This document shows positions 17,433 to 43,600 of a stretch of 64,000 nucleotides of DNA, in pieces (within the stretch, counting starts at the first letter, position 1; each line of letters starts with the position of its first letter). Below the pieces are notes generated by a model. The model saw nothing but the letters and a program-made list of their open reading frames with translations. It had not been told where the DNA came from and made no database searches. Source of the DNA: Gracilariopsis chorda (taxonomy: Eukaryota > Rhodophyta > Florideophyceae > Gracilariales > Gracilariaceae); NCBI GenBank assembly GCA_003194525.1, contig NBIV01000136.1, forward strand, positions 124,001 to 188,000, written 5' to 3'. The translations under genes and the position numbers were made by a program.

Positions 17433-19202
17433 TTAAGTCCTAAAAGCGCTGCGGCGGTCGTTGAGGTTTCGGGATGCAATGGAAGTGGTTCGTAGAATAA
17501 TTGAGTTGAACAGAGGACGGTTGCCGAAGATATCTCGCTCCACATCGCTCAGCTCTTGCAGCACTTCGGATGGAATCTGGTTGCGCCTCTCGTAAAAGAA
17601 CCGATCTCCATCGCGGAGACGGCCAAATTCTACCTTCAATAATTCTGCGAGAGTTCGACCGACTCCTACACCTCTGTTCTTGTCTTCAGCAACGAGCCCA
17701 ATCCAAGCTTCGACGTTGTCCACGTCGCCGTACGCTTCTTCAAGGTTTGCCGCAGTTGTCGGGTCGCTGGAGATATCTCGGAAGCTTCTCGCGGGAGAGC
17801 CGAGGAAGAATCGTCGAAGCTCGTTGAACTTGGGCACATTGTGATCCCGGCTGCGTTGCAAGTTGAGCGCGACGAGGTCAAAGCCTTCTTCCTCCTCCAC
17901 ATTCTCGAACAAAAAGTTGCGAAGAGTGTCCACAACCTTCTCGTCGAATTCTTGAGCTCTGGTCACGGAGGCGGCGCGAAGCACGTTCTCGATTTCATCA
18001 GAGCTGATTTCGGAGCTCGGGAGGAAGAACATATCTTCGGCTGGGATAGAACGAAGTGCTCTTCCATTGTTGTCGACGCGAGGCACGTCTTCGCTCACCA
18101 AAGTGTGTCCAAGGCGGAAGCCGGCTGTTGTGAATTCCAAACTGATGGTCGGGTTAACACTCGGGTTGTAGCCTCTGTAACCTGGGAGCCTTTCGCTTCC
18201 CAGAATAGCCGGCAGCCATTCTTCATATATGATCTTTTGGTACTCTGCAATGTTGATGGCTCGTGCCGCCTCGTACTGCTGTTCCGGGCTGAACTCTGGG
18301 AAGGATTCCTCGAGAAGACCGCAGATCCTGTTGTGCTCACGAAGCCAAATGGTGTGCATGGCCGTCAACATAGGGGTTTCGTTAGCTCGAGGATCTCCAG
18401 CGATGAAGAGGTTCGCAGATGTGGACGGCGCGTTGACGAAGCCTGCTGTGTTGAGCGGTAAGAGGTTATCACCAGATGTCTTGAGCAGACATGAGTTCGG
18501 CACCCTCAAAAATTCATTGAGATCCTCATTACTGCCGTACACATTGCTCAGATCGAGGGCAGAGGTGAGAATAGTAATGGGACGAACAACTGGTGAAGAG
18601 GTGCTCACTTGGGCACGCTGCGATCGGACGAACTCGAGGAACCGAACGGAAAGCTCGGGGTCATCCTCCGGTACTTCGATTTCAAAGCTCTCCTCGGGAT
18701 CACTGAACGGCGATAAGGCAAAGTCGTGATCGATGAACTGTCCAAAGTAAGTAAACATTTCGTTCAGACCTTGGGAATTAGACGTGCGACCACCCTGATC
18801 GCTGACAATGTTGGAGATAGCTCGGGCACTTTGCAAGCCCGCATCTTCCGGCTCTTCGTTGCTGACTCCGAGGTAGCTGAATTGCGGGCGACGGGCCTCA
18901 CCGAGGGTTGGATCCACTTCGGAGGTGCATCTTCCAGTTATGGTACGAATGGTAATCGCGGCACACTCTGGGCTGACGTCCCCCACTTCGTCTCCGCCGG
19001 CACTGTTGCCACGACCTCTGCCATTGCCTCGGCCTCGACCGTTGCCGCGGCCTTGACCACGACCTCTGCCGCTGCCGGAATTACCACGAGGCGGAGCAAG
19101 TGGATTCATGTTATTGCTTCCTCGACCCCGGCGTCTGGGGGCTTGTGCAACTGCCGAAGAGACCAGTGCGGCGAGAACGAGAAGGAAAAAGAGCTTGAAC
19201 AT
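17433..19202 (-). CDS. Secreted animal-type haem peroxidase (peroxidase-cyclooxygenase superfamily)
   Basis: A 589-residue intronless protein. Residues 1-19 or 20 are a signal peptide (hydrophobic run FFLLVLAALVSSAVA), so it is exported. Residues about 22-68 are a Gly/Arg/Asn-rich tract dominated by GRGRGN repeats. The peroxidase domain spans about 80-575. Family residues, named by comparison with myeloperoxidase, are all present: Asp158 and the distal His159 in GQFIDHD, the catalytic Arg272 and haem-linking Glu275 in AGDPRANET, the proximal His366 in FRLGHTLV, and the SRDHNVPKFNELRRF block at 451-465. The position after Glu275 is Thr, not the Met special to myeloperoxidase. It should use H2O2 to oxidise halides or organic substrates outside the cell or in the wall; in a seaweed this would fit oxidative defence or halogenation, but the substrate is inferred. 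The domain appears complete and the gene intact. Confidence 0.95.
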   Translation of the reverse strand: MFKLFFLLVLAALVSSAVAQAPRRRGRGSNNMNPLAPPRGNSGSGRGRGQGRGNGRGRGNGRGRGNSAGGDEVGDVSPECAAITIRTITGRCTSEVDPTLGEARRPQFSYLGVSNEEPEDAGLQSARAISNIVSDQGGRTSNSQGLNEMFTYFGQFIDHDFALSPFSDPEESFEIEVPEDDPELSVRFLEFVRSQRAQVSTSSPVVRPITILTSALDLSNVYGSNEDLNEFLRVPNSCLLKTSGDNLLPLNTAGFVNAPSTSANLFIAGDPRANETPMLTAMHTIWLREHNRICGLLEESFPEFSPEQQYEAARAINIAEYQKIIYEEWLPAILGSERLPGYRGYNPSVNPTISLEFTTAGFRLGHTLVSEDVPRVDNNGRALRSIPAEDMFFLPSSEISSDEIENVLRAASVTRAQEFDEKVVDTLRNFLFENVEEEEGFDLVALNLQRSRDHNVPKFNELRRFFLGSPARSFRDISSDPTTAANLEEAYGDVDNVEAWIGLVAEDKNRGVGVGRTLAELLKVEFGRLRDGDRFFYERRNQIPSEVLQELSDVERDIFGNRPLFNSIILRTTSIASRNLNDRRSAFRT

Positions 19203-21090: not shown

Positions 21091-21374
21091 TTGTAACGAT
21101 CTCCTTTAGGAATCGATAAGACGAGCGGAACAGAGGGGCTGGATCCTCCTGTAGGGAATCCTTAATCGGTGCCAATGGGAGCATCTGTGCTGCTGCCCCC
21201 GTGTGCTGCGGTAAATGCAGCGCCCGTGTGGCAATTACAGCAGCAGCGGCATACGACTGCGATGATGATTGGCGGCTGTTGCCGTGTTTGCTGCGGCTGC
21301 CAACCATTGACTGTGCTTTTTCCACGGCGCGTAGATCAAACCAAATGGTTAATCCAATGTCCGCATTACAAGAG

Positions 21375-21424
21375 CTAGCGGCCTTCGGCCGCGTGCGGCG
21401 CTCCGCGCCGCGTTGGAGGAGTGA
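21375..21424 (-). other. Helitron 3'-terminal double hairpin (Hel-1)
   Basis: On the minus strand the end reads GCGGCGCGGAGCGCCGC, then a spacer, then GCGGCCGAAGGCCGC directly followed by TAG, so the last hairpin base plus TAG gives a CTAG terminus, the CTRR end known for Helitrons. Recognisable counterparts stand at the same relative place in Hel-2 (37674-37720) and Hel-3 (about 30725-30765), with weaker stems. Confidence 0.7.
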
Positions 21425-22930
21425 CAAACAGCGGTGAGAAGAAAAAAGGGTTAAGAAAACAAAAGCAGAAAAGAAGGTAGTTTAATTATATAAATTAAGA
21501 ACGCAAGAAATATGATTATGGTTGTGGAGAGATGCAAAACTGAATGGTTTCACGCATCACTGGGTTGACCATAGCCATAGGCATAGGATGAATTATGTAC
21601 GCATTTGAAGAAGTAAACTGCGGGTCATGCAGGAGCACCACAGGGTTGTTTCTTCGAACGCGCGACAATGCGACATACATATGACTGGCACACAACAACT
21701 AGGATCGCACATTCACAACCAAGCCATCCGATGTCCTACCTGGTCATTTGTGAACGGTAGCTGCAAATGCGAGACAAATGAAGAACTGTTTTTGAATCAT
21801 GCAACTATCTTCAAAAGAAAACTCAAATTCCATGCAATGTACGAGCTTGTGTTCCAGAACTTGTCCGTTTTTGTCGATTTGAGCCACCTGCATCTAAAAA
21901 TGGTGGACAAACACGACTAAGAGTAGTTTCCCGTTGACTACAGCAAGATGCGGCACGTTCCGAATTTTTTTAACTGTCACAACGATGTTTAAGTCCAAGG
22001 TATGATGTGGTACTTCAGTAAGCGCATGCTGATATTCAAACCCGGGAAAGATAGTACTGGCAATGTCAGAATCTGTGTTCTGTCCACGATCAGGTTGCAC
22101 GTTTGTCGCTGACAGAAAAGTGAAGCGCCCACCAGGAAATAGATATAGCGCTGCCGCATTATGTTTGTCGACCAGCTGGTTTGTGGACGCAATGATTATT
22201 TTGCTGATATCCACATCCTCCTTGCGTCGTTTTGTGGGCCATTTCCACAGGACTTGGTAGGCCGTTTGCATGCTACCGGTACATCTGCGTGGTAGTGGAA
22301 AATTTCTGGATATTTTGTTGCGTGCAATGGAACGTAACAGCGACGCAATGTTGGATCATTGGCTTGACGTACTTTTTCAGTGACTTACAGCATTTGAAAC
22401 GAGCACAATGCCCACAGATCATCTTCCACGGCAATTATTTGATAATCTTTGTGTACATTTGCCTCAAAATTCTACTTGGCTAGGTCTCCAGGTATACGTG
22501 CGGCACCACTGGAAGCAGCTGGGAGTACTCGCCTGATAGAACGATGGTCAAGCGCCCAAACAGAGGAGGGTTTGTCATTCCACTGCAGCAAAGATCTTTG
22601 AAAAACGCATCCAAGAGTTCGAAGAGCTTTCGTGAGAGCATGGACGCCTCATCCAAGACGAGCACTTGTATTTTGCGTAGCAGTTCTGCACGTTGAGATC
22701 GGGGACCGTATTTTGACAAAGTGGCTGCAGTGCTGCTTGTATTGTCCTTGTCAGCTACACCCAGTCTGATCAGGCTATGTAAAGTGCGGCCACCTTTGTA
22801 AAACGATGCTGCAATGCCTTTTGTAGCAGTAATTTCGGCGAGCATTCCTTCCGACTCAGCGATACCCCAAAGGAGGTTTAGCACGTATGTCTTTCGGGCT
22901 CCTGCGGATCCTTGCACAGAAAACACGTTT

Positions 22931-23829
22931 CTAGGTGTAGTGCACGCCTTTCTCAAGGGGGGGATTCCAGGCACTGGTTCATAATTTCCGATACATCGGG
23001 GATGACACTTACTACACTGTTATGAACAGGAGCAATGCGGCGACAGTGGGCATACACGTGGTGCACGGCATAGCCGGGAATGCGCCGTGGCAACGGCTCG
23101 CTCACGTGTCACACGGGTGATGGTACTGTAGTGGATACATGGTTAGAAATATTCTATTTATTTATTTATTTATTTAGTTTTTACATTGGGTAGTCTACTG
23201 TACTTAGTGCAGCGGCAACCGCCGCTGCACCTCAGTAAACTTCCCCAACAAGGGTGTTCCTGCTTAGAATCTTCCCGAAGAAGGGGGTCTAACCAGGGAC
23301 TTGGCTCCGAACATTCACGCCATCGGCGGTGCTCGACTCCACCACGGAGAGGTATCCCGTTGTATACGGTTTGTTCAACCCCCTTGCTCGCTTAACAGAA
23401 CCCATTTCTGGGATACCAGTCTACTCACAGTTGTGGCTTCGCCTTGCATACGGTTTCATCCGGCCCTGCCGATATCCATCGAGTCCTTCTTGTGACTCGC
23501 TCCCTTTTTCCTCACTTCCCTATTCCTTTTCCTTTTCCTTTTCACCTTTTTTGGTGGGCCCCGCTATCCGCGGCTCATACTGACTCATTGTCGTGTGCGC
23601 CACCGTTTGGACTGGTGCCTCCTACTTGGAGCAATACATCGTGTGGACGGAGCTTCTCTGGTTTGCCAGCTACCCCTTCCTATGCAAGTCGTGAGGGCTG
23701 ACCTCGGCTTACAACCGACCTAGTCGTGTCATCCCTGGAAGGGCTCTGCTACTGCGTTCACCTTGACAAGGGAAGATCCCGAACGTCTTCGTGGTGTTCT
23801 CCCGTCGCCGGGCATTGCACCACACTAGG
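22931..23829 (+). mobile_element. Solo LTR of the 56.7-kb gypsy family, inserted in Hel-1
   Basis: LTR span 22936-23824 (889 bp), starting TGTAGTGCACG and ending GCATTGCACCACA, flanked by CTAGG at 22931-22935 and 23825-23829. It aligns with the 813-bp LTR at 56687 (shared CCCCAACAAGGG, AACCCCCTTGC-type and ATCCGCGGC-type blocks) but is clearly more diverged than the solo LTR in Hel-3, so an older insertion or a sister subfamily. It contains a (TTTA)n run at about 23154-23176. It lies immediately before the helicase P-loop in the Helitron frame, in the opposite orientation. Confidence 0.9.
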
Positions 23830-26800
23830 AGTGATTGTTCGCTCCTTCAGTGCCTGTTGTTGTTGAAATGCGGCAATGACGGTGTCAATGGCTTGTATTT
23901 TGCGAGTTTTTAAGGAGGCGTACCTTGACTGCAAAGTTGAGAATTTTTGCACCAATCCCGCGTCTCGACTTGTTGTAGCTTGATTCGCCTCATTCAATGC
24001 TGCATGGTCCTGCTGTAGGTGTTGGGAGAAGAATCTGTGATCGCGAAGCGGTCGTCCTCCATGCCATTCTGAGATCTCCAACACACGTCGATACATTTCT
24101 TGCTTTCGTTGCTGCTCATCTCCTTTATGTTTGTCGCTACAAAGCGCCTCCCAGTTTTCGACGGCCATTGTCTCTGGGTCTGCGCCTTGTTGGTATGGTG
24201 TAACAACCAGACGTCGTAGCTCGGAGGGCGCGCTGTAGATCTGCACTGCTTCTTGAAATGGGGTATCAAACTCGGATCCGTCCGCGAGCAGTCCGCTTAC
24301 AGTCGCAGTTTCACGATACGTTCCATACTGCTGTCCATTGAAAGTCCTTGCGTCTCCATAAGAGCTCGAGCCGTGATTAATGAGCAGCAAGCGCAGAGCA
24401 AAGAGCTCAATGCCCGACATTGAAACACCTCTGAGCCTTGCAACGCACTGCTCGTCTTCCGTGCGCTCTAACACTTACATGGGCGGCTAGCAGTCGCCAA
24501 TGGGCACCTGAGTGCTGTCTCCGTCGTATTGGGTGAGCACGCTTGCTGGAAGCGTGCGATACAATCGAACTTTTTCAAAGTACGAAAATTAGTCGAGGTT
24601 CGCATATGCTTCGTGCCTTCCAAAGTATCTCTCCAACGTAGACGGTGGCGATGTGGAACGGATTTGATTTGGACATCTGAGCCGAAACCTTTGCTCTCCT
24701 TCCAATCGAATGGCCAGTCGCTATACGTTTGGTACGATTTGAACATGACAAAACTCGAAAATTCTCCAAGCTGCATTGACAGCGCCCACCACATGCGCTC
24801 GCATGTATGCACGACTGTCGTTCTGTGCCTGCAGCTCTTGTTGATGCTCGTTCTGTTTGCCTGTTTCATTAGCACCACTCACATTGAGCACCACCTCCTG
24901 AGCTTTGGGCTGCTTAAACGCGTACTTCATCAGATAAGCCACTGCACCACGTCTTTGCGTGCTTTTTACGTTGATATGAGAGCGGTACTTCTTGGTCAGA
25001 GTTGGGTTGTAGGGCACAATCTTGAGTTCATCTTGCCTTCTTCTGCTGTAGATCACGCGATTCGTGCCTTCTTCAATGTACGTCTCTGGCACAATCATGT
25101 TGCGGCCGTATCCAAACTTTCGCCACCCAGCGCGATTCTGGCAATAGGGGGAGTGGCGGTGCCTGTGCATGGAACGAATGAGGGCAAGCAGCGCGTCTTC
25201 TTTACCGGGAAGGGGAAGTTCTCCACCAATCAGCTCTTCTAACACATCAAAGTCTTCAATCACGCCTCCTTCGAGCTTCACGAGTTTTTGGTGATGAAGC
25301 ACATTGTCCTCTTGAAACTCGAGCTTTAGTGCAAGCCCCAATCACTTCAATCCAAAGATATGCTCCGAGTTCCTCTCTTAATCCTACATGAAGTCATTTG
25401 CGTACTGGTTGTACACCCTCGCAATCAGATCCGGTTGGTCAAACGGTTGAGGGCGGTTACTCTGTGCCGTAAATGCGCTCCGATTGCTGGTATCCATACC
25501 AAGACGCTGGAGGTCTTCTCTCCAGATTTTCATGGTGATTGTAATGAAAATAGAAGGCAGTCTTCTCCGCACTACGAACTCCTGTACATCCATGCGCTTG
25601 TTCTTTCATTTCGCTGCTGAGTTGACCGAGTCATCGGGCAGAAATATGCGTCCCATTTGTGCGAACTATGATGGTGACAAAAGACCTGATTGCTGTTTTG
25701 CTTGCTGGAGCTCTTGATCTTGGGCAATACGTGCCTGTTCTTCTCTCACCAGCAAACCTAGTCGCATATCCTCAATCTTTGTGTGCGTGCGAAGCATCCA
25801 CATCTGCATCAACGGTCCACTGTTTAGGATGATGTTGTCTGAGTACAGACCTCACTTCGCGTCCTCAGCCCGGGTGAGCTTTCGGAGTTTCCACTCGTTG
25901 ACGGTGAGACCTGAGCTATGCTGTGTGGAGTTCCTTGCATCCAGAAACAGGCCGATGTCAGACGATGCGTGCTGATCACCGTACGGGTAGAGAAAAGGGA
26001 AAGTGCCCTTCTCTGCAAGTTTGGATGCCGGTTTTAGAAGTTAGTACCGCACTTGCGCATTATTTGGGGCATTCTCAGTCGCCCCTGCTCCAGCAGCAGC
26101 AGCAGAACTCGTCACTTTATCGACCTCTTCAATTACGGTTCCTTCTACGAAGCGCGGTACCTGAGACTCCACTCGGTACAGGCCAGTGGGATCAACGACG
26201 AGCGTTCTCATCATGGTTGGCCCTCCACCAAGAACAGCTTCAGGGAGAAGGCCAGCACCTGCATGAGTAGCACTGGCTGTAGCACTTCGGGTTCCTTTGT
26301 ACCCACGTACGTCTACTCATTGTTCCGCTGCTTTCACGCTGATATCCACAGCAGTCTCCGCATTTTGTTGTTGTTGTTGCTGCTGCGTGCTTAGCATGGA
26401 TCGGTAACGTTCACGCATCACGTATGACTTCGGCCCAGTCACCTCGTACAGCTTGGGTACGATGTCTCTTGCGCTGATTTACTGAATGAACGCACGCATA
26501 TCGGCACGAGCATAGTGAGATGGATCCAAGGAAGACGGACCGGTACCCCACAGAAATCTGTAGCGCGTGTTGTTCTGGTTCTGCGTGAGCAGAGCAAGAG
26601 CGGCGTTGCCCTCCAGTCTGAGACAGGAAGGACCGCCTCCCGTCACATACGACATGTCCATGAACACTTGTGTCGTCGCGAAGAGCGTATTGAAGTTGAG
26701 GAAATGGCTGTGAAAAGCTCTCAGGTTTTAAACACTGCGAACCAACTCACTGCTATGCCTTCAACAGAACGTGACGCCCCATCCTGAAATTCTTTTCATT

Positions 26801-27137
26801 GCACAGCACACTCCATTGGTCTCTTTGCCAAGCAAAACGCATCCGGAGTACCTGCAGCTATGAATTATCCATGTGCAGTCCGGGTACGGGGAGGAGGAGA
26901 GCGTGTGTGCGTGCTCACCGTATCTTCCGCACCGCCTTTGACCCGCAGTGGAAAGCGTCTCAAACTCTGGAACGCTTGCACGGATAGCTGGATCATTCCA
27001 ACCTTCGTCAGCCGCAGTATCCCACGCATAATACACGAGATACAGTCCTCGATCCGGACGTCCAGCACACTGCATGATCGTCGTATCAAGCTGCTGCTGT
27101 GGGTGCTGCGGCTGCTGCGGCTGCTGCTGTGGTGGGT

Positions 27138-27440
27138 GTAAGGGGGCAGGAGTGATCTCATCTTCTTCAACTTCCATGGGAACTGGCATCTGCTCTTCTT
27201 ATTGTTCGGCTTGTGGCATACCAGGTTGCTGTGGCGGCTGTGAGGGGGCGGGAGTGATTTCATCTTCGTCCATTTCCATTGGAATGGGCATCTGTTGTTC
27301 TTCTTCAATTTGCCGCAGAGAAGGCTGCTGCGGCGGCTGTGAGGGAGGAGGATTGATCTCGCCCTCTTCCACTTCCATCGGATCGGGCATCTGATCTTCT
27401 TATTCAACTTGCGGCAGAGGGTGCCCTTCTGTCTGCACGG
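27138..27440 (-). repeat. Three tandem 99-102-bp repeats inside the Hel-1 gene
   Basis: Units begin at about 27138, 27240 and 27339 on the plus strand. On the coding strand each gives about 33 residues of the type PxPMEVEEDEITPAPSQPPQQ. Hel-2 holds a shorter version near 42.5-42.7 kb. Confidence 0.8.
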
Positions 27441-27699
27441 TTGTGTGGCCCTCATTATCTACAGCAGGCGCAGGCATTGATGGGAGAGATGGAGGCATAG
27501 GAGAGGAAGTTGGTCTTGATGTGGGCCTGGAACCAATTGCCCCAGCAACGCACGTAGGTGCAGGAGTAATTTCGTCCTCATCCACGGCTGTAACAATGGG
27601 TCTTTGCACGTGCACTCTGCTCTCATCTACCGGCATGTCATCTGGAGCGGGAGGAACTGGCAATTGTCGAGGTCGCCCAGCTCCTGGCCTTGCGCCGCC

Positions 27700-28062
27700 T
27701 GATTTCAATCTGGCCACTGCCAAATTGGCTCTATCACCACCGGAGTTGGCTCTGGCCCCTCCTGAATTGGCTCTGGCCCCTCCTGAATTGGCTCTGGCGC
27801 CTCCAGCGTTTGCTCAAGCACCTCCAGCATTCTGTCTGGCGCCTCCAGAATTGGCTCTAGTACCTCCAGAATTCTGTGGAGCACCTCCGGCATTGGCTCT
27901 AGCACCCCTGGCATTGGCTTTGGCACCTTAAGAATTCGCTGGGGCTCCGGTATTGGCTCGTCCATCTCCAGAATTCGCTAGTGCACCTCCAGAATTCGCT
28001 CGAGCACTTCCACAGTTCGGTGTAACCCCACAAGAGTTTGGACGTGGCACTCCTCGCGTCAT
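27700..28062 (-). repeat. 21-bp repeats encoding (GGARANS)n at the Helitron protein N-terminus
   Basis: On the minus strand the frame from the ATG at 28062 reads near-perfect seven-residue units GGARANS or variants (GGARQNA, GGAPQNS), roughly 14 to 16 units, then GGARPGAGRPR. The plus-strand frame across this stretch (Ala/Pro/Leu-rich) is its shadow. Hel-2 has a shorter, more diverged array at about 43.01-43.17 kb. Confidence 0.85.
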
Positions 28063-28725
28063 TTTAATTCAACAAAAAAAAAACCATTCAACTCAATTTT
28101 TTTGAACCGCTGAACAGTTTGACAGGGTCCCAGAATAATTTCCAATATAACAGAAAGTTGAGAGTGAAAAATTGGTTGCAGTTTGTTGCTTTGCATCCAC
28201 CGGGCCTAGTCTCATGAGCAATTAGAAAACATTTGCTGCAAGACTTATATTTACCCGATGCAGTCATGCGCAGCACAGGGACTCTTGACACACTCCTGTT
28301 GGATTATGACGGGCAGAGTGTGCCCAGCCGGTTTTCAAGCCGTTTGATGTTTAACCTGCGTCCGGTTGCAAGGATTGGTTTGCCTTTACTTACACACTGA
28401 AGTGTGCTTTCCGGCCCCAAGAGTTACGACATGGCGGCCGCCCCGGACCCTGCACAGCAAGCTCGTATTAGGTCCAGGAAACCCTCAGACTTCCTGGATC
28501 GCTTCCAAACCACCAGTATACCATACAGGAGCACCTGAACAATCCGAGATCCACGATAATTATTGGGTTACTCTTGTGGCGACCTGCATACGAGCTTGGG
28601 CTTTCCTACCTCCCAGGCCAGCAACAGTGCCCAAAGTAGCAAATGGTTACGACACTTCGCTACTGGCCAAGCCTGAATGCGATGCAAAATAGTGGTTAGG
28701 GCCAGCAAGCGAGATGCATTTGGCA

Positions 28726-29062
28726 CTGCGCCAGTGCAGTATATATGCTCTGTGCATTGTGGGGCACTGGCGCAGAAGAAAAAGGCATTCGCGTGTCGTG
28801 CAAGCCAGCTAATGCTGAGTGGCTGGCACTGCAGTCATTTACTTTAGTGCCAGTCACTCAGCAGCTGCGGCAGTCATCAAACAGCAGCAGCCAATAAGGT
28901 TCGAGCTTTGCTGCTGCTGCTGCTGCTGGTGAATTTTTTAAATGGCAGGTAGGCGTTGCGCCAAAAGAGGTTGTTGGACGCGCTTAAGGAGGCGTGCAGG
29001 CGTGTTTATTGGCGCAATGCCTCCGTTCAATCAACGTGTACGCCTTCATACGCTTATGAAGG
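28726..29062. repeat. Cluster of four inverted repeats with CAG/CTG runs
   Basis: Stem pairs: 28726-28737 with 28764-28775 (12/12, CTGCGCCAGTGC); 28814-28830 with 28856-28872 (16/17); 28951-28963 with 29010-29022 (12/13); 29043-29050 with 29055-29062 (8/8, CCTTCATA). A (CTG)6-7 run lies at about 28910-28930. There is no open frame. It lies just beyond the shared 5' part of Hel-1, so it may be its terminus or an independent fold-back element. Confidence 0.65.
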
Positions 29063-29069
29063 TATAGAA

Positions 29070-30700
29070 TGGAAAGGTCATTCAAGTCATAGTATAATAA
29101 TTTATATCCCTAACTTTTAGCAAGCCTACCAGAGACCGTCGCAATCACTCATAAGCTTAAAAGAATAACAAAATATTCGTTCATGTATGGTTCTGAGTAG
29201 TAACAATTAAACTTTTTTTCTTTTATACATTAACATAGCTTGCATGATCTAGTTCACTGTTCTGTTTCAGTCATTAATATATCAAATAAACCCAATGAAA
29301 ATGGTTTTCAAAATGACGTATTGCAAACGTCTCAGGTTTCTATCGTTTTAATATGAAAACATTGCATTTTTCGAACTGTAGCAAAAATATTTAGTAATTG
29401 TACACTAAGAAAAATCTTCCAGTTTGTTCTGTACGTATTCCTCTTTACGGGCCAAAAAGTGGTCAAAAATACACCAGCGATTATAATACTCAATCCGTTT
29501 AACAGAGATAAAAAACATAATATCATCACAGTTGTCTGCACATTGTTAATACAAAAACAGTTACTTTCTTCAATATATCATGACAGTATTTAAAACTGGT
29601 GAATTTGTAATTGACTTAGTTTACAAACGTCCCGTTCAAACAAAAAGGATTAAAATTGTACTTTGAGGCATTTAAAACAATTACAAATTTTTATAAATCG
29701 TTGTATAGCTTACAAGTGTTCCTTTCTCACTTTAAAGTATTATGTGACTGATAAAAAATGATGCTATGCTTTGCGCACAAAAATCTTCCTTTCAAACAAA
29801 TTCCTGAAGAAACGCAAACGTGCACAAAATAAGTTTTGAGAAAGTGCTGGACGCTTTTTGTCTCATTCAAAACTGTTTTGGTTAACCAAGCACCCTATGT
29901 TGAACGCCGAAGTCAATTTTGTACCAATTATTTTCGGATTCTTATGTTCAAACTGTATAGGTGCGTCGTGGTCTGCCACTCATGTTGGAAGTGTTGATCA
30001 TACTAGTATGAAATTTATACAGCTGCACTGGGCGAACGAAAATATTATTGTACTACCGCGTATAAGTGTTTTAGGGCATGAAGTAAGAATGGTAGATGAT
30101 GAAACCAGCGTCTTGAGGGATTATATATACTGCATTGTATAGACGTGAAGATCATGTTCTTCGACATAACCAAACTTTTAAGAAAGTTTTCGCACCGCGT
30201 ATCTTTCACAGCCATTTACTACCACGGGGTAGGCCAGACGTCGCTTTCCTTGAGTGTAGATTTAAGCTGCAAAATTTAAGGGTGCAAGACAGCTGTAGAT
30301 AGCGATTCGAAGGCTTTCGAAGTGAAAAAAGAAATGACAGATTCAGGTAATCGAGGCAATTGTTTCAAAGGTTGCGGTATTTTATGCTACTAGAAAGCCT
30401 CTTTAGAACTCAGTTTTGCAACAGGTGATGAATTTATGCAATATCTCAAATGACGCTATCATCACAAACAAAAAAGCTGACGTGTTTTAAGTTCTCTTTA
30501 TAGACCTGTAACAGAATAGTTTCAATACTCAGTTTCATAACAACCAGAATATGTTTGCAGTATAAGACAAGGAAACTTCTCGAGTCTCTTTCTACAATGA
30601 GACAAAGGGAGATATTCTTGCATAGACATTTTACGGTTGCAGTTTGAATTCGCAATTCAAACTGAGTTAATGTCTTAATCTCATTCCGTCCGTATTTAAA
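29070..30700. other. AT-rich stretch without a recognisable gene
   Basis: A 94-codon plus-strand frame at 29858-30142 (begins at a TTG) contains FVPIIFGFLCSNCIGASW and might be a decayed coding fragment, but I recognise no family. The rest has only short frames. It separates Hel-1 from Hel-3. Confidence 0.4.
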
Positions 30701-30919: not shown

Positions 30920-33900
30920 CTAGTCTTGACTATCATTCAGTAGAACATCAACAGATGTTTTCACACGCGAAAGCTCAATATAGACTTGATCAGGCGAAAA
31001 AAGGAATGTTCGAGAGTCAATAATCATTTTCTTCAGCTTTTGTCCTTGCGCTTTATGCGGAGATACTGCAAATACCAATCTGATGCGAAACTGTCGACGT
31101 TTGATTTTCGCATCTGCAAACTCAAAGACGAAGTCAATGCGGTGCAGTAAAACGCTTTGCTGAATTTCCTCATGTTCATCGATGCCGGAAACTCGAATCA
31201 CTCTGCAAGAAATGCTGGTAACGATAAACATTTTTCCATTCAGCAAATGCGGATGTACTACATTTTGAATCACCATAACAGGAACACGCAAATTCAGTTT
31301 CAAATGATGGTGCGGGACTCCAGTAGGAGCGTAATTATACGTTAGTTCAGGTCCAATGATACTATTTGTGCGAAAGTTTTCACCGTTTGGCCTTCGATTT
31401 GGAACGATCGTCATTGCAGACTTCAATTCAAACATCTTTCCTGGGAAATACTCCAATGCGTTCTGTTTGTATTCCTCCATGCATTGATTGATTGGCGCAA
31501 CAATCAATCGGTTAAGCTTGAAAACTTCCTTCTTCCGTGTTGTAAACCATTTCCACAGCAACTTGTATGCTTCGTGTACATCTGATGTAGATATGATTCG
31601 AAGCCTTGCAAATGCAGGAAACGTCCCACAACAAATACTAAGCAATCATTTGGCAAAAACCGGATCATTGTTGTTGACGAACTTGTTCTGTAAGGCAAAG
31701 AACTTTGACTCTTCTGTCGCAAAGCTCGCCAGAATACTATGGAAGCTCCCGTAGGAGACTCACTGGAATAACACGAATTTTTCCATCTGTTTTGGATACT
31801 GTTCTCGTCCTTGGAAGCACTGGAAGCTGTTGCATATAGGCGCCGGCCATAACTACGACCAAGCCTCCGAACTATTTCATAGAGTGTTTGAAGTCCTTCA
31901 GTACGGTGTTCACAATCTCGAAGACTATTTTCGGGCACATTGAAGCTTCATCAAAAACCAGCAGAACAGTATCCCGATTAGTTCTGCTCTCTGTGATCGT
32001 GGTCTGTACTTGGAAATTGTCTGACGCTCTTTACGTCTTGAATCATTGTTGTCATGGACTCCCAATCCAACCAAACTATGCATAGTTCTTCCGCCTTCAT
32101 ATACGTCAGCAGCAATACCTGCCGTGGGTGTCATCTCCAACATTAGGCCTTCGTGCTCAACAATATCTCTCAGCAAAGATAGAAGATAGGCCTGTCCCGC
32201 TCGTCTTTGTAGGAATAAAACGCTTCCGTGTGTGTTGAGTGTTTCATACTCTCCCGTTCTCTCTCGGTATTTTTTTCTCTTATTATTTTGTCAAAAAGTT
32301 GCTTCTGGCATTATTTCAGATAATTCTATCCCCCTTTTCACCGTGGCCTGGACCTTAAAGAAGAGCTGCGACGTCTGTTGTGCAATGCCCCAAAGGGGAA
32401 AAACACCGAAAGACGTCCGGGATCTTCCTCTCACGAGGTGAACCCAGTTGGGTAGAGCCCTCCCAGAGGTGTCACGGCGAAGCCGGTTTGTAAGACCAGG
32501 GACACCTGTCGCGACTTGCGCAGGGAGGTGAAGGCGAATAATCGGTATCCGCGTGAGCGGGGTGTGATCCTCAGTAGAGGTATGTTTCCACGTAAGTGGG
32601 GAAGTGTGAGCGGGTGCACACAGGAGGGGCCGCGGGTAACGGGATGTACTACCCTGAAAGGGGGAAAGGAGGAGAGTGAAGGGAAAGGAGGAAGAGTGGG
32701 CGAGGGTGAGTCGCGAGAGCGACGAACGAATACGGCAATGCCGGTGGACAGGACTCTCTATACAGGGCGAAACACCAATGTGATTGGAACAATTATACTC
32801 CCAAAGATGGGCCTCTTTAGATGTGCAAGGGGGTTAGATGTCCCGTGGTTTACGGCGTTTCCCTCCAAGGAGGAGTAGAGCACGCGCGGAAGCGGTAACA
32901 ACTAGAGCCAATTCCCCAGGTTAGGGTCCCTTGTTGGGGAAGGTTTACTGGTGCGACGGCAGTGCGCCGTCGCACTAAGTACTAGCTTCCGAGAAATGGG
33001 TGTGAAAATAATAAATATATCAACTAAAATACTCCACATTTCGTGGAAACATCCACTACTGTGGCCAACTGCCAACTGACCCAAAACCGTGTCCCACGTG
33101 TCCATATCCACCATAATGGGGCATAGTTCATATACACACTACACAACCGATAATATCGGGAAAGCGTTCAAGTACCAAGAATCCCTCCCTGAGAGCATTG
33201 CACTACAACGTCCTTCACCTCATTTGTCTGTTAATTGCAGTTCGCTCTCTCTGAGGTGAAGTTGTGATACAGTATGATCAAGTACGGGATTATTTCTGAT
33301 GAGCCGATCATCCAGTCTCCCCAAAATCTCAATGATTCTTCGAAGTAGTTCTTCTCTTCTTTTTGCTCTGTTTTTCTCGGTTATATCTGCAGTTAGAACT
33401 CGTTCGTGGTTTTCAATCACAGTTTTAGGAGTTACCCCTTGTTCAAAGAATGTGACCACCATGTAACGCAGCTCAGCAGGAGTAAAATGGTATCCTACTC
33501 CCTCATCAAAAGCCGTTGCATACTCGTCACGATGTATATATAGTTCACGGGCTACTGTCGCTCCTCCACAAGTTGAGAAAGATTCGTTCCCAACACGTTT
33601 CGAATCAGCAAAGTAGCTGAATGCAGAGTTCATAAGCAATATTCGAAGAGCGAAGAGTTCGGTGTTTGCAGAGGAAGCCAATCTAATTCGATTCACAGTT
33701 CGATCGTTTTCTGATCGTTACACGACGTACATTCGTGGACGTCATCCATCCCAAGTAGATTCAGACTCTGGTAAAGAGCAGACTAGATTATCGTATATAC
33801 CTACCGTCTCCTAGAATGTCATGTAGTCCAGGTCCATGTACTGGGAGGGTCGTTTGAAATACCTTTCCATCCGGGAAGACTTCAGACGTCTAGGAAGTCT

Positions 33901-36576
33901 TACGTTTCGAATCAAAACCTGTCCCTCTCCACGTAGATGTAGGGCAAGTGCCTCTACAGTTGGATTGATGCGAACATGTTTGAACTCAAAGAGGTTCCAT
34001 GCAGCTTCAAACGCGACCACCTCTCTCGCTGTCATGTACGCCTTGTTCTCATTTTGAAGCATGTCGCTCTGTGCACCTTATTGGCTTTCCGTTCGATTTG
34101 AGACGACCAGATCCTGTTCTTTGGCATTCTTGAAAGAAAAATTCATGCAATATGCTACAGCGTTGCCATCTTGGGTTCTTTCAACATTGATATGAGCCTT
34201 GTACTTCATTGTGAGATCTGGATTGTACGGAACCACTTTCAAATATTCTTTCCTTCTTCTTTGGTAGGTCACTCTGTTTTTGTATTCATTTATCATTGTT
34301 TCAGCCACAATTTCTTGTCAATCATACCCAAATCGGCACCGCCCGCCTGAGGTACAACCACGGCTATATGGAGAGTGTTTGTGCATATTGAGTTTCTTCA
34401 CCAATAATCGGAGCTCTTGGTCTTCAGGCGGGTCACCCAGAAGCAGTTCGGCTTTGATCAAAATGTCAACGATCTCAGGATATTCAATTACGCCCCCCTC
34501 CAACCAAAGAAGAATGTGTTGATATGGAATATTTCTCTCCTGGAACTCAGGTTTGGCAGCAATCCCAATGCATTTCAAGCCAAAGAGTTGTTCTGAATTA
34601 TTCTGTAGATCCTTTATGATTAAACTTGCGTACTAGTTGTATACTCTTACAATAAGATCCGACCTATCAAAAGAACGGCTTCTGTCTCCCTCTGGACAAA
34701 ATGTTCAAGTGTTTTCATTGTTTATAATAGGTCTTTTCACATCTTCCCACCATATGTTCGTGGTTACTGTGATGAAAAGCGTCGGAGAGCCCAGTCGAGT
34801 GACCATTGCTTGCACATCCAGTCTTTTTTTCTCCTGTACGATGGAGGGTTTTTGTGATTACCTGGAAGGAAGAATCTACCGGGAGGGCCAAGTTCATCTG
34901 TTCCGGTATGGGTTGCAACCCGCAGCTCACGTTCTTCAAACATTCTCATCTGTTCTGTTTCCAAGAAACGAAGTCTCAAGTCTTCAATGTTTGTGCTACT
35001 ACGAAGCAACCATTGGTGAAGAGCAGTGACAGAGTTCAGGAGCAAATTATCGGTACACAGTATTCGCTTAGAGTGTTCTGACCACGTTAGGCTCCTTTCG
35101 TCTCCCTTGTTGGCATCCCTTGATGAAATACATGTTGCTGTATAATACGGGGCATGAATCTCACCGTAAGAGTAGAGCAGTGGAAAAGCCTCTTTCTCAG
35201 GGTCCATTATGTCAGGCTTTGAATGCCTGTACTTGACAACTTGACGTCGACGATTTCCGGTTGACATATGATGGAACTCTCTTCTTCCTACCAGCTGGGC
35301 ATCTGAGGCTTCTGACCTGAACAGTCCACTTGGCTCTATGACAAAAGCTCTCATTGGAAGAGGTCTGCCTCGGCTGTCTTCTGTTAAAGATTCTGCACCA
35401 GAGCTCACCTCGATTCGGGCTTCATGGGCATCTTGATAAGTTTGGACAGCTATTTCTTCCTGAACAGCGTTTGCAGAGATTTGCAGAGTAGACTCATCTG
35501 TGTTTGATCTCCTCTGAAGACTTTTGTCTGGTCCGACTAAATCTTAATACCTCTGTCAGACAATGTCTGGTCTTGTTTGCAAGGGATCGTATATGTTTGG
35601 AACCAAGTATCGAATATTCGGTTTTGACACCATTCGTTCCGTGAAAGAAGAACAATAATCCCGTGATTGAAGACTGGGAGGACCTTCCGACCACAAATAT
35701 GTGTACCGGACGTCCTGGAATGGAACAGAAAGAGACACATTGCCTTGAAGTCGAAGAAATGACGGACCTCCACCCCAAACATACTTCATATCCATGAATG
35801 TGAAATTTGCAAATAACCCATTTAAGTTTGTTGATAGCGTTTGAAAAGAACGTCAACAATATATTTCTTCAAGTTGCGATTTGATATGGACTAGTTCCAA
35901 AGAAACGCCGAGCGATCTGGAGATTTTATGTCCACAGCATGTTCGTTCCATCTCTGCACCAAGCAAACCTGCGCCACAATACCTGCACATACAAATACGA
36001 AGCACTAACCCCGAATCTTTGAATGGACATCGACTTGCTCGATGGCCGTTTGCACTGCACTTCCCACAACACGCTGGAAGTGTCCCAGTGATCGGGTGGT
36101 ACTACGGAAATGAAGATGTTGGACGTGCGAGGCCTTGAGGAATACTTTCTGTTCTTGCATTCCGGATATATTTTGCTCCATACTGAATGCCTTGACGAGA
36201 TCTCCCAGCAGACTGCATAAACGTCCTATCTCGGTCTTGTTGAATGCCACAAGAATGAAATGCGTTCAACTAAATATCTTCAGGGTTATGACGCTCCATA
36301 ACATTTTCAGGAAGCTCGGTTCTAGTTCCTACGTCCACCTGCGCAAGCTCATCGGTTATGTATCGATGATGCACGGGCTGTATATTCTCTCTTGGACGAA
36401 GGCCTGCTCCTGACCAGAGTTCACCACGTCGGGATGGCGGTCGATGCGAAGAAAAAGTCATGTCTGACTGCGGGACCCGGAGAGATATTGAGAGATTTGG
36501 TTATCTCCTATCGATGGAACATGTACCATCTCTGCCGCTTGAGTAGAGAACTGGTGTTGCACAGTAGTTTCCTGCA
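30920..36576 (-). pseudogene. Helitron Rep/helicase (RepHel), Hel-3 copy, decayed
   Basis: N-terminal zinc-finger-like motif CRYCGAGLLGAEMERTCCGHK-type at about 35895-35990 (first Cys pair CRYC, second CC). Helitron N domain at 34.76-35.86 kb (EAFPLLYSYGEIHAP, LRLRFLETEQMR). Rep at 34.08-34.8 kb with TLFITVT, ERNIPYQHILLWL and CRFGYD; its two-tyrosine box reads YCMNF at 34138-34152, so the second Tyr is Phe. The helicase has VFDEASM (Walker B), a decayed P-loop region, and a good 241-codon C-terminal stretch at 30920-31645 containing FAVSPHKAQGQKLKKMIID and YIELSRVKTSVDVLL (motifs V-VI). Several frame breaks and a solo LTR interrupt it. Hel-3 best preserves the C-terminal helicase; Hel-1 best preserves the tyrosines. 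Confidence 0.85.
32371..33212 (-). mobile_element. Solo LTR of the 56.7-kb gypsy family, inserted in Hel-3
   Basis: LTR span 32376-33207 (832 bp), flanked by ACGTC at 32371-32375 and 33208-33212. Read on the minus strand it begins TGTAGTGCAATGC and ends GCATTGCACAACA, a near-perfect terminal inverted repeat. It is clearly closely related to the LTR at 56687 along its whole length, much more so than the Hel-1 solo LTR. Solo LTRs arise by recombination between the two LTRs of a full element. It is in the same orientation as the Helitron gene. Confidence 0.95.
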
Positions 36577-37673: not shown

Positions 37674-40600
37674 CCGGCTTTCAGCCGCGGGCACAGCTGC
37701 GCGTCATGTTGGGGGAGTGATAAAAAGTGGTCGGAAAAATGCGTGGAGAAAGCAAAAGCCCAAGGCAAGTAGTTTAATTCAAGCAAAGAGAAGCACATAA
37801 AAGATGGTTACGTCTTGGGGTGAATGCAAAACTGGATGGATTGAGGCAGCACTGGTTTTTTGGTGGCCACAGGCATGAGATGAATGGTCTGTGCAATCCC
37901 AGGAGCACGTTTTGGGTCATACAAAAGCAGCACATGATCATGCCTTTGAACGGAACAATGCTACGTATAACTGATCGGCGCAGAAAACGTTGGGTTGTGC
38001 ATTCACTTCCAAGCCTTCCAAAGACGTTCCCTTTTTTTTGTGGACGGTTGCTGCAAACTACAAGTGAATGGGGAACTGCCTTCCAAACATGCGAATGTCT
38101 GCGAAAGACAAATCGAAGTCGATAAGATGGAGAAGCTGCCGTTCTGGTACCTGTCCGTTCTCTTTGAATAAAGCCACGCCCATCGTAATCTGATAGACGC
38201 GCATGACCACGAACAGCTTTCCAATGACCAAACCGAGATCTAGCACGTTCCGAATGACCATAATTGGCACACCAATATTCATGTCCAAGTTATGAGGCGG
38301 TACTCCAGTAGGCGCATACTGATATGAAAACTCAGGAATGATATAACTGATCATGTCAGACTCTGGGTTCTGTCCACTATCAGATTGTACAGTCGTGGCT
38401 GAAGGAAAATTGAAGCGCTCACCACGAAACAGATCCAGCGCTATCGCATTATGTTCATCGACCAACTGATTTTTGGACGCAATGAGCATTTTGATGAGAT
38501 CAAAATCGTACTTTTATTGTGTTGTGAGACACCTCAACAGGAATTTGGAAGCTGTTTGCATGCAACTGGTAGATCTGAGTGGTATTGAAGCGTTGTTGGA
38601 TATTGTGTTGCGTGCAATGTAACATAAGAGCGACGCATATACCGCATTATCTGCTTGGTGTACTTGCTTGGTAAATTACCGAACTTGAACCGAGCACAAT
38701 ATCCACAGATCACTCTTCCATAGTAACAAGTCGGGAAAGTTTATGTACTCTCGTTTCACATGTCCACTCAGCCCACCCTCCATGTATACCGGCGGCACAA
38801 CTGGAAGCAGATGGGAGCAGTCGCTGCATTGTATGATTTTCAAGCCCCTAGACGGAGGCAGGGTTTCTATTTCACCGCAGCAAAGACTTTGAAGCAACGC
38901 ATTCATAAGTTCAAACACAGTTCATGAGAGCAAGGGTTCCTCATCCAAGAAGAGAAGTTGTATTTCGCGTAGCACTTCTGCACGTTGAGCTCGAGTACTG
39001 TGTCTGGACAAAGTGGCTGTAGTGCTGCTTGTACTGTTCTTTTCCGCTACACCAAGTCCAAGGAGGCTATGGAATGTGCAGCCACCTTTGAACAAAGATG
39101 CATCAATGCCTTTTGTGGCAGTCTTTTCGGCGAGCATGCCTTCCGACTGAGCGATATTGCGAAGGAGGTTGAGCACTTATGTAGTTCTGGTTCCTGCGGA
39201 TCCTTGCACAAAAATAACCTTCCTAGGAGTTTCCTTTCACTCCTGCAGCACTTATCGTTGTTATAATCCAGCAATGGCGGTGTCAATGACTTGTCTTTGG
39301 CGAGTATTTGAGGTAGCGTACCTTGACTAAAACGTTAAGGCATTTCACAGCACGCGCACGTTTCGAGTTGTTGTAGCTCGATTAGTCTCCGTCAATGCTG
39401 CATCCTCCTGCTCACTGTGTTGGGAGAAGAAGCTGTGATCGCGTAGCAGTCTTCCACGGTCCCGGTCTGAGATCTCCACCACAAACCGTTCTATCTCTTG
39501 CTTCTGTTGCCGCTCATCGCCTGTATCTACTTCGATACATAGCGCCTCCCAATTGTCGACGGCCATATTCTCTGGGTCTGCGCCTTTTTGGTATAGTGTA
39601 ACAACCAAGCATCGTAGCTTGGAGGGCGTGCTATAGATCTGCATTGCTTTTTGAAACGCGATATCAAACTTGGATCCCTTCGCAAACAGTCCGCTTGCAA
39701 TCGCAGTTTCACGATACGTTTCATACTTCTATCTGTTTAAATGTCTTGCCTCTTTACATTTTTATAAGAGCTGAAGCCGTCATTCATGAACAGTACGCGA
39801 AGAGCAAAGAGTTCGACTTCGGACGCTGGCACACTTCTGATCCTTGCGACGCACTGATCGTCTTTCATTAACTCTAAAACGTATATCGGCGTATCACAGA
39901 CGTCTGTGGGCACTTGAGTGCTCTCTCCCTCGTGTTTATTAAGCAAAATTGCAAGAAGAGTGCGATACAAACGCAACTTCTCAAAATAAGAAAGGTAGTC
40001 GAGTTTTGCATATGCTTCGGGCCTCGCAAATTATCTTTCCAGCGTAGAGGGCTGCGACGCATAAAGGATCTGTTTTGGACTTCTCAGCAGAAATGTTCTC
40101 TCCCATGTCAAGTGGATTGCCAATCGCTCTGCTTTAAGTACGATGAGAAGATGGCGAAACTCAAAAATTCTCCAAGCTGCGGTGACGGCGCCCACCATAC
40201 GTGCTCGAATATATGCACGAATTTCGTTCTGAACCTGCGGCTCTTGTTGCTGCTCGTTCTGCATGCCTGTCTCATTAGCGCCACTCACATTTAGCATCAC
40301 ATCCTGAGCTTTGGGCTGCCTAAACGCGTGTTTCATCAAATAAGCCACTGCGCCCCCCCTATGCATGCGTTCTACGTTGTTATGGGATGGGTAGTTCTTG
40401 GTAAGAGCTGGATTGTACGGCAAAATCGTGAGGTCTTCTTGCCTTTCGCTGTAGTTAATCACGCAATTTGTGCCATCTTAAATGTACGTCTCGTCATAAT
40501 CATGTTGCTGTCCTATTCAAACTTGCACAGCCCAGCGCGATTGCAGGAATGAAGGGAGTGGAATGGCATTGTGAATGGAACGAATGAGATCACGCAGCAC

Positions 40601-43600
40601 GTAGTCTTCTTCTGGAAGGGCAACTTTGTCACAAATTTGCTCGTTGTTCACACCCACTACTTCAAGCGCGTCTCCTTATAGCTACGCGAAAATGTGGTAA
40701 TAAGACAGAATGCGTTCTTGAAACTCACGCATTGATGCAAGCTCCAAGCACTTCATGTCAAGGATTTGCTCCGATTTCTTCTCCAATCCCTTCATGAAGT
40801 TATTAAAGTACTGGTTTTACACCCTCGCAATCAGGTCCAGTGCGTCAAACCGTGGAAGGCGGGTACCCTGTACTGCAAAAGCGTTACGACTGCTGGTGTC
40901 CACCCCAAGGCGGTGGATGTCTTGTCTCTAGATTTACATTGTGATTGTAATGAAGAGAGAAGGCGGTTCTCTCTGTGCCAAGATAGTCTGTAATTCCGTG
41001 TGTTTGTTCTTATAGTACGCTTTTGAGTTGATCTGGTCATCTGGCAGAAAGAATTGCCGCATTCTTGGGGACTGGAATGATGATACTTGACGAGTATATT
41101 TTTGTGCTTGCTGGATCTCTAGCTCTTGTACAATGCGTGCCTGTTGTTCTCTCTCCAGGAAATGAAAACTCATGTCCTCAAGGTATGTGTGTGCGCGAAG
41201 CATCCACATCTGCATCAGCGGTCCACTGTTCAGGACTATTCTGTCTGGGTACACACATCGCTTTGCATTTTTAGCTCAAGTGAGCTTTCAAAGCTTCCAT
41301 TTGTTGACACTGAGACCTGAGCTTTTCTGTGTGACGTTCCTTGCTTTTAGAATCAGGCCAATTTCAAACGGTTTGTGCTGGTTGCCGTACGGGTAGACAA
41401 TACGGAAAGTGCCTTTCTCTACAAGTTTGGATGCCGGTGTTAGAAATCAGTACCGCACTTGTGCATTGGTTGCAGCATTCCCAGTCGGTCCAATTCCAGC
41501 ACCAATAGCACCAGACGTTACTACGGCAAGCTCTTCTGTTCTGGTTCCTTCTACCAAGCGCGGTACTTGAGAGTGCCCTCTGTATACGCCAGTCGGATCC
41601 AAGACGAGCGTTCTCACCATGGTATGCCCTCCGCCAGGAGCATCTTCAAGGAAAGTAACTTCTCTTGCATGAAGAGCATCAACTGTGGCACTTCGGGGCC
41701 TTCGTATCCACGTACAACAATTCCTTGTTCCTCTCCCTGCGTGGTTATATCCAAAACGGTCTCCGCATTCTGATGTTGTTTTTGCGTGCTAAGCATGGAT
41801 CGGTAACGCTCGCGAAACACTTTGGGCTTGGACTTGATCACATCCTATAGCTTGGAAACGATTTCTCGTAAGTTGAGGTCCTGAATGGATCTACGAAGAC
41901 TCGCATGCACGTGGTGAGATGGTTCCAAGGAAGGCGGTGCGGTAGGCCACAGAAACCTGTAGCGCGTGATGTTCTGATTCTACATGGAGAGAGTGAGTCT
42001 TGTATCACGTCCAATTCTTAGAAAGGACGCACATCCTTAAATAACGTAAGACATGTCCATGAACGCATGTGTCATCACGAAGAGTGCTTTCAAATGGGGA
42101 GAATGAGAGCGAAACACTCTTAGGCTATACACACTGCGAATAAACTCCTTTCCATGCCTTTTGCGGAAGGTGATACCCCATTCCAACATTTTTGTCACTC
42201 TACAGCACACTCCGGGTATCTTCTTCCCAAGCAAAACACAACTGCAATACTCGCAGCTATCACTTCTCAATGTCCGGTCCGGGAGCTGGCAGGAAGAGAG
42301 CGTTTGTGAGAACTCGCCGCATCTTCTGCATCGCCCTTGACCCAAACTGGAAAGCGTCTCAGACTCTGTAACGTTTGCACGGATTGCTGGTTCATTCCAA
42401 GCTTCAGCTGGAACAGGATAGTATGCATAGTACACGCGATGCAGTCCTCGATACGGAATTCCAGAGCAACGCATGATCGTTCTATCAAACTGCTGCTGCC
42501 CAGGCTGCGGCTGCTGCTGTCGCAGGTGTAAGATAGCAGGAGTGAACTTATCGTCTTCAACTTACATGGGAATTGGCATCTGGTCTTCTTTTTGTTCAGC
42601 TTGTGGCAAATCATGCTGCTGTGGCGGCTGTGAGGGAGCAGGAGGGATCTCATCCTCTTCTACTTCTATTGGAAGGGGGATCTGTTCTTCTTCTTCCACT
42701 TGCGGCAGAGCACGGCCATCTGCCTCCATGGTGTGTGTTGCCCTCATCATTGACAACACGCACACGCATTGGTGGGGGAGATGGAGGTACAGGAGAGGAG
42801 GTTGGTCATGATGTGGGCCTGGAAGCACTTGCCCCAGCGACGGACGTAGGTGCAGGAGTAATTCCGTCTTCTTTCACAGCTAGAACAATGGATCCTGCAC
42901 GTGCGCTTCGCTCTCATTTACCAGCATCTCATTTGGAGCATAAGGAACACTGGAAATCGTCGAGGGTGTGCAGATCTTGGGTTTGCGCCGTCTGATTTAA
43001 CACTGGCTACCTCCTGTACTGGCTCTGGCACCTCCAGAATTTGCTCTCGCTCCCCCTGAATTGGGTCTGGAACCACCAGAACTCGGCGTGGACCCTCCAA
43101 GATTCGGACTGGCACCTCAAGAATATGGTCTGGCCCCACCAGAGTTCGGAGGTGGACCTCCTAGTGCCACATTATTTTACAAAAAAGAACAATCAATTTT
43201 TTATACACCTAACATTTCTGCCAGAGTTCCAGAATAGTTTCCAATTTAAGAAACATTGTAAGGTAAAAAATCTGATTGCAGTTTGTTCACTGCACCCATC
43301 GCGCCTGGTTGCATAAGCAGTTAAAGAACTTGCTGCAGGAGTTATATTTACACTCTGCAGTCGTACGCAAAACAGGGACTCTCGACACACCCTTGTTGGA
43401 GTTTGACGGGCAGAGTATGCCCAGCCGGTTCTCAAGCCGATTGATGTTAAACCCACTTGAGCTTAAAAGGATTGATCTGCATCTACTCACACGCCGAATT
43501 TTGCCTCCGGCCCCAAGGGGTACGACACGGTGGCTGCCCTGCACCCTAGACATCAATCTGATATTAGGTCCGGGAAACCCTCAGATTCCAGGTCAAACGA

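Follow-up and report, generated by a model that had tools for sequence, protein, structure and literature searches.

Helitron transposases are large proteins, and their N-termini are poorly understood. The Rep/helicase gene of one Helitron of Gracilariopsis chorda, here called Hel-1, opens with a row of near-identical seven-residue units, and this raises the question whether the units are an inherited part of the transposase and what they may contribute to it. The window analysed is the whole stretch of 64,000 nucleotides from contig NBIV01000136.1 (forward-strand positions 124,001 to 188,000), and positions without a locus name refer to it. For comparison, the genome (91.3 Mb, 1,081 contigs) was searched. 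One phycobilisome-type match is in line with a red algal origin. According to the available parts of earlier publications, Helitrons usually have a zinc-finger-like N-terminal motif (PMC5148889), and the red alga Gracilariopsis lemaneiformis is listed with 1.71% Helitrons (PMC5970526). A heptad tail of this kind is not mentioned in these parts, nor in those of PMC10380284. A literature search of open-licence full texts without figures yielded no Helitron with such a tail, which is weak evidence of absence.

Anatomy of Hel-1

Hel-1 is a decayed autonomous-type Helitron on the minus strand (21369..29077), delimited by the points at which the homology of its relatives stops and by comparison of the ends across copies. 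All its features are on this strand. The 5' end (29077) reads CC, where most relatives have TCTCTCC; at the 3' end (21369) a hairpin is followed by CTTG, with T as the next base. The reading frame begins with an ATG at 28062 and the protein start MTRGVPRPNS (28033..28062), and then runs through 17 heptads of the form GGxRx(N)(S/A) to 27700, matching the N-terminus that a preliminary description had placed at 27700..28062. The array itself (27700..28053) is interrupted by two in-frame stops and has lost one codon. Its units are near-identical as described, but 17 were counted instead of about fifteen, with divergent first units and one unit minus a codon included.

The array is followed by the sequence GGARPGAGRPR (27667..27699, from the translation), here termed the cap. 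The cap pattern is recurrent in the genome, with 180 exact matches as compared to 0 for the reversed pattern. The AT-hook core consensus is RGRP with flanking proline and basic residues. With AT-hooks of the HMGA type the cap shares a GRP followed by basic residues and the position in an N-terminal tail, but its core is GAGRPR, without the first arginine of RGRP. The AGRPR patch reported behind the heptads is therefore present as part of the cap, and is AT-hook-like rather than a canonical AT-hook.

Three 33-residue acidic, proline-rich repeats of the EVEEDEI type lie at 27123..27405 (translation; TRF period 99 bp, 2.8 copies), before the Rep region as described. A cysteine-rich, zinc-finger-like stretch was found by translation at 26782..26940; Pfam reported no family for this type of stretch. 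The Rep region (24916..25911) matched Helitron_like_N (PF14214, 3.1e-13) and has the two-tyrosine motif YLMKY. A PIF1-type helicase region (21992..22956; PF05970, 2e-28) is directly preceded by an insert of about 0.86 kb (22957..23817), which has no counterpart in the relative L014 and appears as a gap in tblastn and blastn. Array and start of Rep are in one frame, since a single tblastn alignment with an 887-residue relative spans 28062-25414 at 70.5% identity. Hel-1 is a dead copy, as indicated by the stops and the lost codon in the array, later stops, a degraded HUH motif (LHHQK versus PHHHM in an intact relative) and a degraded Walker A motif (GSAGARKT).

The window contains 12 matches to the heptad DNA pattern at up to one mismatch (nine in Hel-1, three in Hel-2), versus 0.01 expected from shuffles. 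Hel-2 (38282..43161, minus strand) is a decayed relative and carries the shorter array attributed to it, about eight degraded units with a stop at 43161-43000; its cap is hardly recognisable.

A complete relative and the Helitron ends

An uninterrupted frame of 1,807 residues was found in L124, a member of the low-divergence lineage. It encodes, in this order, six heptads, the cap, the acidic block, the cysteines, PHHHMLVW, YLMKY, GSAGTGKT and DEAS, and matched PF14214 (Helitron_like_N, 2.1e-26) and PF05970 (PIF1, 3e-38) in Pfam. Altogether, six Rep domains were detected by the Pfam search in open frames of 1,807-1,809 residues, L124 included. Placement of the array outside the gene was ruled out by the in-frame arrays and by this complete frame, in which heptads, Rep and helicase are continuous; the heptads are thus not out of frame in an intact family member, a case that the preliminary description had named as decisive. 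The carrier of the array is a Helitron Rep/helicase with an HUH and two-tyrosine Rep and a C-terminal PIF1 superfamily 1 helicase, and the identity proposed earlier holds both for Hel-1, by its PF14214 and PF05970 matches, and for L124, by intact motifs.

The array passes into the cap, GGARxGAGRP. The net charge of the tail was +21 over 134 residues in L014 (long array) and +12 over 57 residues in L124 (short array), and the block behind it is acidic (-30 and -31, respectively).

The left end was TCTCTCC in 7 of 10 copies compared, Hel-1 having CC and two others G/T variants. The right end was CTTG followed by T in 10 of 16 copies, and the remaining six were variants; a hairpin of the GCGGCCGAAGGCCGC type is located about 10 bases before the 3' end. 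The canonical 3' end of Helitrons is CTRR. Except for the last 3' letters, the ends of the family fit canonical Helitrons. Helitrons of the HLE1 type insert between A and T and leave the target unduplicated. At the occupied sites compared here, T follows all ten CTTG ends; where the left end does not border on another element, the base before it is A in Hel-1 and L011, and L020 is ambiguous. In three places (L022:6735, L024:4891, L021:7318) a Helitron 3' end abuts the next 5' end, with no base or only a few between them, for example as CTTG|TCTCTCC, as if insertion used the T after an earlier 3' end.

The family thus shares with Helitrons of the HLE1 type the HUH/two-tyrosine Rep, the PIF1 helicase, the cysteine-rich N-terminal stretch, a 5' end that is mostly TC, a 3' hairpin near the end and the T behind it. 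It differs by the heptad array with cap and acidic/proline repeats, and by CTTG instead of CTRR. In the same genome, another Helitron group (L060, C91:68000-71000) also has an arginine-rich repetitive N-terminal tail before Rep, but this tail is made of RRAESSEQQAERRRRNRER-type repeats without Gly-Gly heptads; differently built basic tails therefore coexist in the Helitrons of one genome. Members of a second group stand in head-to-tail rows on contigs C389, C838, C793, C887, C921, C86, C440 and C66, where Rep matches lie on one strand at a spacing of mostly about 6.1 kb; ten are listed for C389. The rows may be an assembly error. Helitron rows are known from other cases, according to the available part of PMC5148889.

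Heptad arrays across the genome

At the DNA level, the 501 N-terminal bases of Hel-1 gave at least 44 genome matches (40 of 296 candidates scored), and a protein search with the array at least 163 (150 of 459 candidates scored). The loci fetched were 20 of up to 10 kb, 19 of 1 kb and 14 N-terminal regions, three of the latter (L048-L050) from the array search and 11 from a Pfam search for Helitron_like_N. Nine of these 11 Pfam-selected loci (L051-L059) have the array; the other two, L060 and L061, belong to another Helitron group, the start being covered for L060. In total, 53 arrays were measured, including the two window copies; L001-L008 were left out as repeats of the same places, and the near-identical pairs L012/L013 and L023/L024, perhaps assembly duplicates, were retained. 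Many genome copies carry the heptads, so that the array is inherited, as had been claimed, and is neither an expansion in one copy nor restricted to one locus.

The arrays comprised 5 (one copy), 6 (eight), 7 (two), 8 (one), 10 (two), 14 (two), 15 (eight), 16 (eight), 17 (nine), 18 (six) or 19 units (six). The length was a multiple of 3 in 41 of the 53 and an exact multiple of 21 bp in 40; 24 arrays kept the frame and had no stop. The far end of the array was placed by the cap DNA (at most 10 errors in 30), and hence the presence of the cap in 53/53 is partly by construction. The ATG was kept in 47 of the 53 copies, and an in-frame stop was found at most 10 codons upstream of it in 49 (absent in L014, L032, L038 and L040). 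The tail therefore begins, as a rule, at residue 4.

Selection on the heptad peptide

Units were compared with each other within 24 copies, which had been chosen as in frame and stop-free and which share ancestry, so that they are not 24 independent tests. The ratio dN/dS was 0.18 in the coding frame, and 1.15 and 1.53 in the shifted frames. The coding frame gave the lowest ratio in 24/24 copies, and 17 of these were recomputed. In ten long-array copies, the first two bases of the Gly, Gly and Asn codons differed in 3-9% of unit pairs, and the third bases in 39-56%. The first base of the arginine codon changed in 49% of unit pairs (AGA/CGA) with arginine unchanged; in ten long-array copies arginine is present in 155 of 159 units, through six different codons. 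Counted over 14 long arrays it occupies 205 of 215 units, and over 10 short arrays 61/61, while positions 3 and 5 are variable. Silent sites differ most, and in the coding frame only; it is therefore the peptide GGxRx(N)(S/A) that is kept, and not a DNA minisatellite alone. In the region behind the array, dN/dS was 0.27-0.36 in seven of eight pairs, and 0.76 for L014 versus L019, which are of one lineage.

Chance, or a minisatellite alone, was ruled out by the window shuffles and the frame test. A neutral 21-bp minisatellite, with the tail as tolerated disordered filler and the heptads without function, would agree with unit numbers that vary from 5 to 19 between copies, with the 40 arrays that are exact multiples of 21 bp and with the contraction of the least diverged lineage to 5-7 units. 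It is nevertheless very improbable, given the great excess of silent over replacement differences between units in the coding frame only and the arginine in every short-array unit while positions 3 and 5 vary. The array is a real, inherited and selected N-terminal module of a Helitron family.

History of the array

A tree was calculated from the 1.7 kb behind the array for 34 sequences, some of them shorter, and was midpoint-rooted; support was low at several nodes. Under this rooting Hel-2 branches off first. L049, with 10 units, clusters with copies of 15-18 units, Hel-1 among them. The shortest branches belong to the lineage with 5-7 units, and this lineage is nested inside lineages with 15-19 units. 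From this nesting, the long array is probably old in the family and has shrunk in the least diverged branch. Growth of the array in the newest elements is disfavoured by the same nesting, some supports being low.

Hel-3 (31674..36461, minus strand) is a more distant Helitron with 35-55% identity to L014. It begins with MTFSSHRPPSRRGELWSGAGLRPRE, that is, with a cap-like stretch and without heptads; the lack of heptads had been described, whereas the cap-like start had gone unmentioned. Its family starts with MSSSSHRPPSRRGGRRSGAGRRPRE, and the cap-like stretch, intact or altered, was present in 8/8 fetched copies, in L016 and in the window copy, none of which has a heptad array. The heptads may have been amplified from the first half of the cap. 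Long arrays are thus dispensable: 5-7 units suffice in the least diverged lineage, and the Hel-3 family does without any.

Phage counterparts of the tail

A viral pattern of two heptads plus the opening residues of another, with the cap left unnamed, was run on IMG/VR. Its third GGAR may already belong to the cap, and no fewer than two heptads can match. Five contigs matched, and in 5/5 the two to five heptads are ended by a cap (GAGR or GSGP form). The reversed pattern gave 0 matches in IMG/VR. Four of the five contigs have a NusG domain, and one matches a terminase small subunit. A second pattern, one heptad plus cap, matched 47 IMG/VR contigs (L065 being in both sets) and, when reversed, none. 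A rough sorting by four-residue words in common placed 41 of the 47 in three groups (29, 7 and 5 contigs). With one representative examined for each group, a terminase small subunit was the best match in groups 1 and 3; in group 2 a family of unknown function was best and the terminase small subunit weaker (6e-5). The terminase-like representatives matched phrog_18735, phrog_641 and phrog_309. Beside L086 and L099, the remaining six contigs comprise L065, which is NusG-like, and L077, L104 and L105, which had no family match when scanned.

In the phage small terminases, with starts of the MAGVKGKSGGARPNSGGARPGAGRK type, a GGARPNS heptad stands directly before GGARxGAGR near the N-terminus, as in the Helitron tail. 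In many cases a methionine stands eight residues before the motif (MAGVKGKS), with phage starts assumed and not annotated; on this assumption, the Helitron start MTRGGPRPNS...GGARPGAGRPRR has its N-terminal counterpart in the 47 viral contigs. The terminase tails differ in having mostly one heptad, two in a few, and no Rep/helicase, and the stretch is too short and repetitive to show homology or to be placed phylogenetically. In the NusG-like proteins (L062-L065) two to five heptads end in a cap like the Helitron tail, but a NusG domain follows (PF02357), with a match to the antiterminator family phrog_6386 for two of the four. The heptads are therefore not unique to the Helitron element, because phage proteins that match the terminase small subunit and NusG families are preceded by such units and cap as well.

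Viral pattern 1 gave three matches in a collection of prokaryote genomes, none of them a comparable array with cap. An IMG/VR protein search for Helitron relatives confirmed none, and tblastn of the array against phages with the low-complexity filter on gave no match. The tail had no match in NCBIfam or Pfam, and none among solved structures beyond a chance one at E 8.2. The array of L014 matched phrog_25538 at 8.5e-8, perhaps by composition only; this is a phage family of unknown function.

Proposed function of the tail

Since the tail is basic and conserved at the protein level, a role in DNA contact is the best reading. We propose, with a probability of roughly 0.55, that it is a flexible, disordered, basic DNA-contact tail that holds the transposase on its substrate, with the acidic, proline-rich block behind it. 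At the extreme N-terminus of the Rep/helicase, evenly spaced arginines would contact DNA with little sequence preference, and the substrate held might be the donor strand, the single-stranded intermediate or the target. The cap would work like one AT-hook-type contact, and the heptads, as tandem copies of its first half, would add avidity. The grip on DNA might be weakened or undone by the acidic, proline-rich block, whose net charge is about -30. The preliminary description had suggested DNA condensation during rolling-circle transfer as a further possibility; any such role would have to be filled by 5-7 units in the least diverged lineage. Unit number would drift within loose limits through unequal exchange, while selection would act on the Gly-Gly, Arg and Asn of each unit. 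An N-terminal AT-hook with the core GRP is described in the available part of PMC10380284 for Sf6 gp1, a phage small terminase (EPKAGRPSD), and also for E. coli YffO.

Two other roles were also considered. Gly/Arg-rich tails also bind RNA or serve as localisation signals. A tail for nuclear localisation or protein-protein contact, with importins, arginine methyltransferases or a host factor, and not DNA, as the partner of the Arg/Gly repeats and of GAGRPRR, would suit the basic GRPRR cluster after the array, the extreme N-terminal place and the Gly/Arg composition. We consider it unlikely, as 17 copies are not needed for a nuclear signal and as phage proteins, for which nuclear import is not expected, have the same heptads and cap. 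An RGG-like tail that binds RNA and tethers the transposase to its own transcript, or that forms condensates in which the protein is enriched together with host replication factors, would fit the low-complexity Gly/Arg/Asn/Ser composition; a basic block combined with an acidic one is also a composition able to phase-separate. This appears quite unlikely, because the repeat is not RGG, which occurs just once in the tails of L014 and L124, within MTRGG, and because the phage counterparts mostly resemble DNA-packaging proteins.

As a wider form of the DNA-contact reading, the heptads and the GGARxGAGRP cap could be a portable DNA-tethering module of phage terminases, NusG-like factors and the algal transposase, gained by horizontal transfer or by repeated origin, with unit number tuning the grip; this is conceivable but doubtful. 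The resemblance to phage packaging proteins suggests a short peptide rule for DNA-holding tails, namely GGxRxNS repeats closed by GAGRP. Lineages with 0, 5-7, 10 and 15-19 units within one genome constitute a natural series on the role of the basic tail.

Other elements in the window

A frame of 589 residues with an animal-type haem peroxidase domain (2.1e-119) is located at 17436-19202 on the minus strand, and its start overlaps a short tandem repeat. Retrotransposon remains were found on both strands, with an RVT_2 reverse transcriptase on the minus strand (45809-47551) and RVT_1, RNase H and integrase domains on the plus strand (7473-10526, 55476-56084 and 60931-63723).
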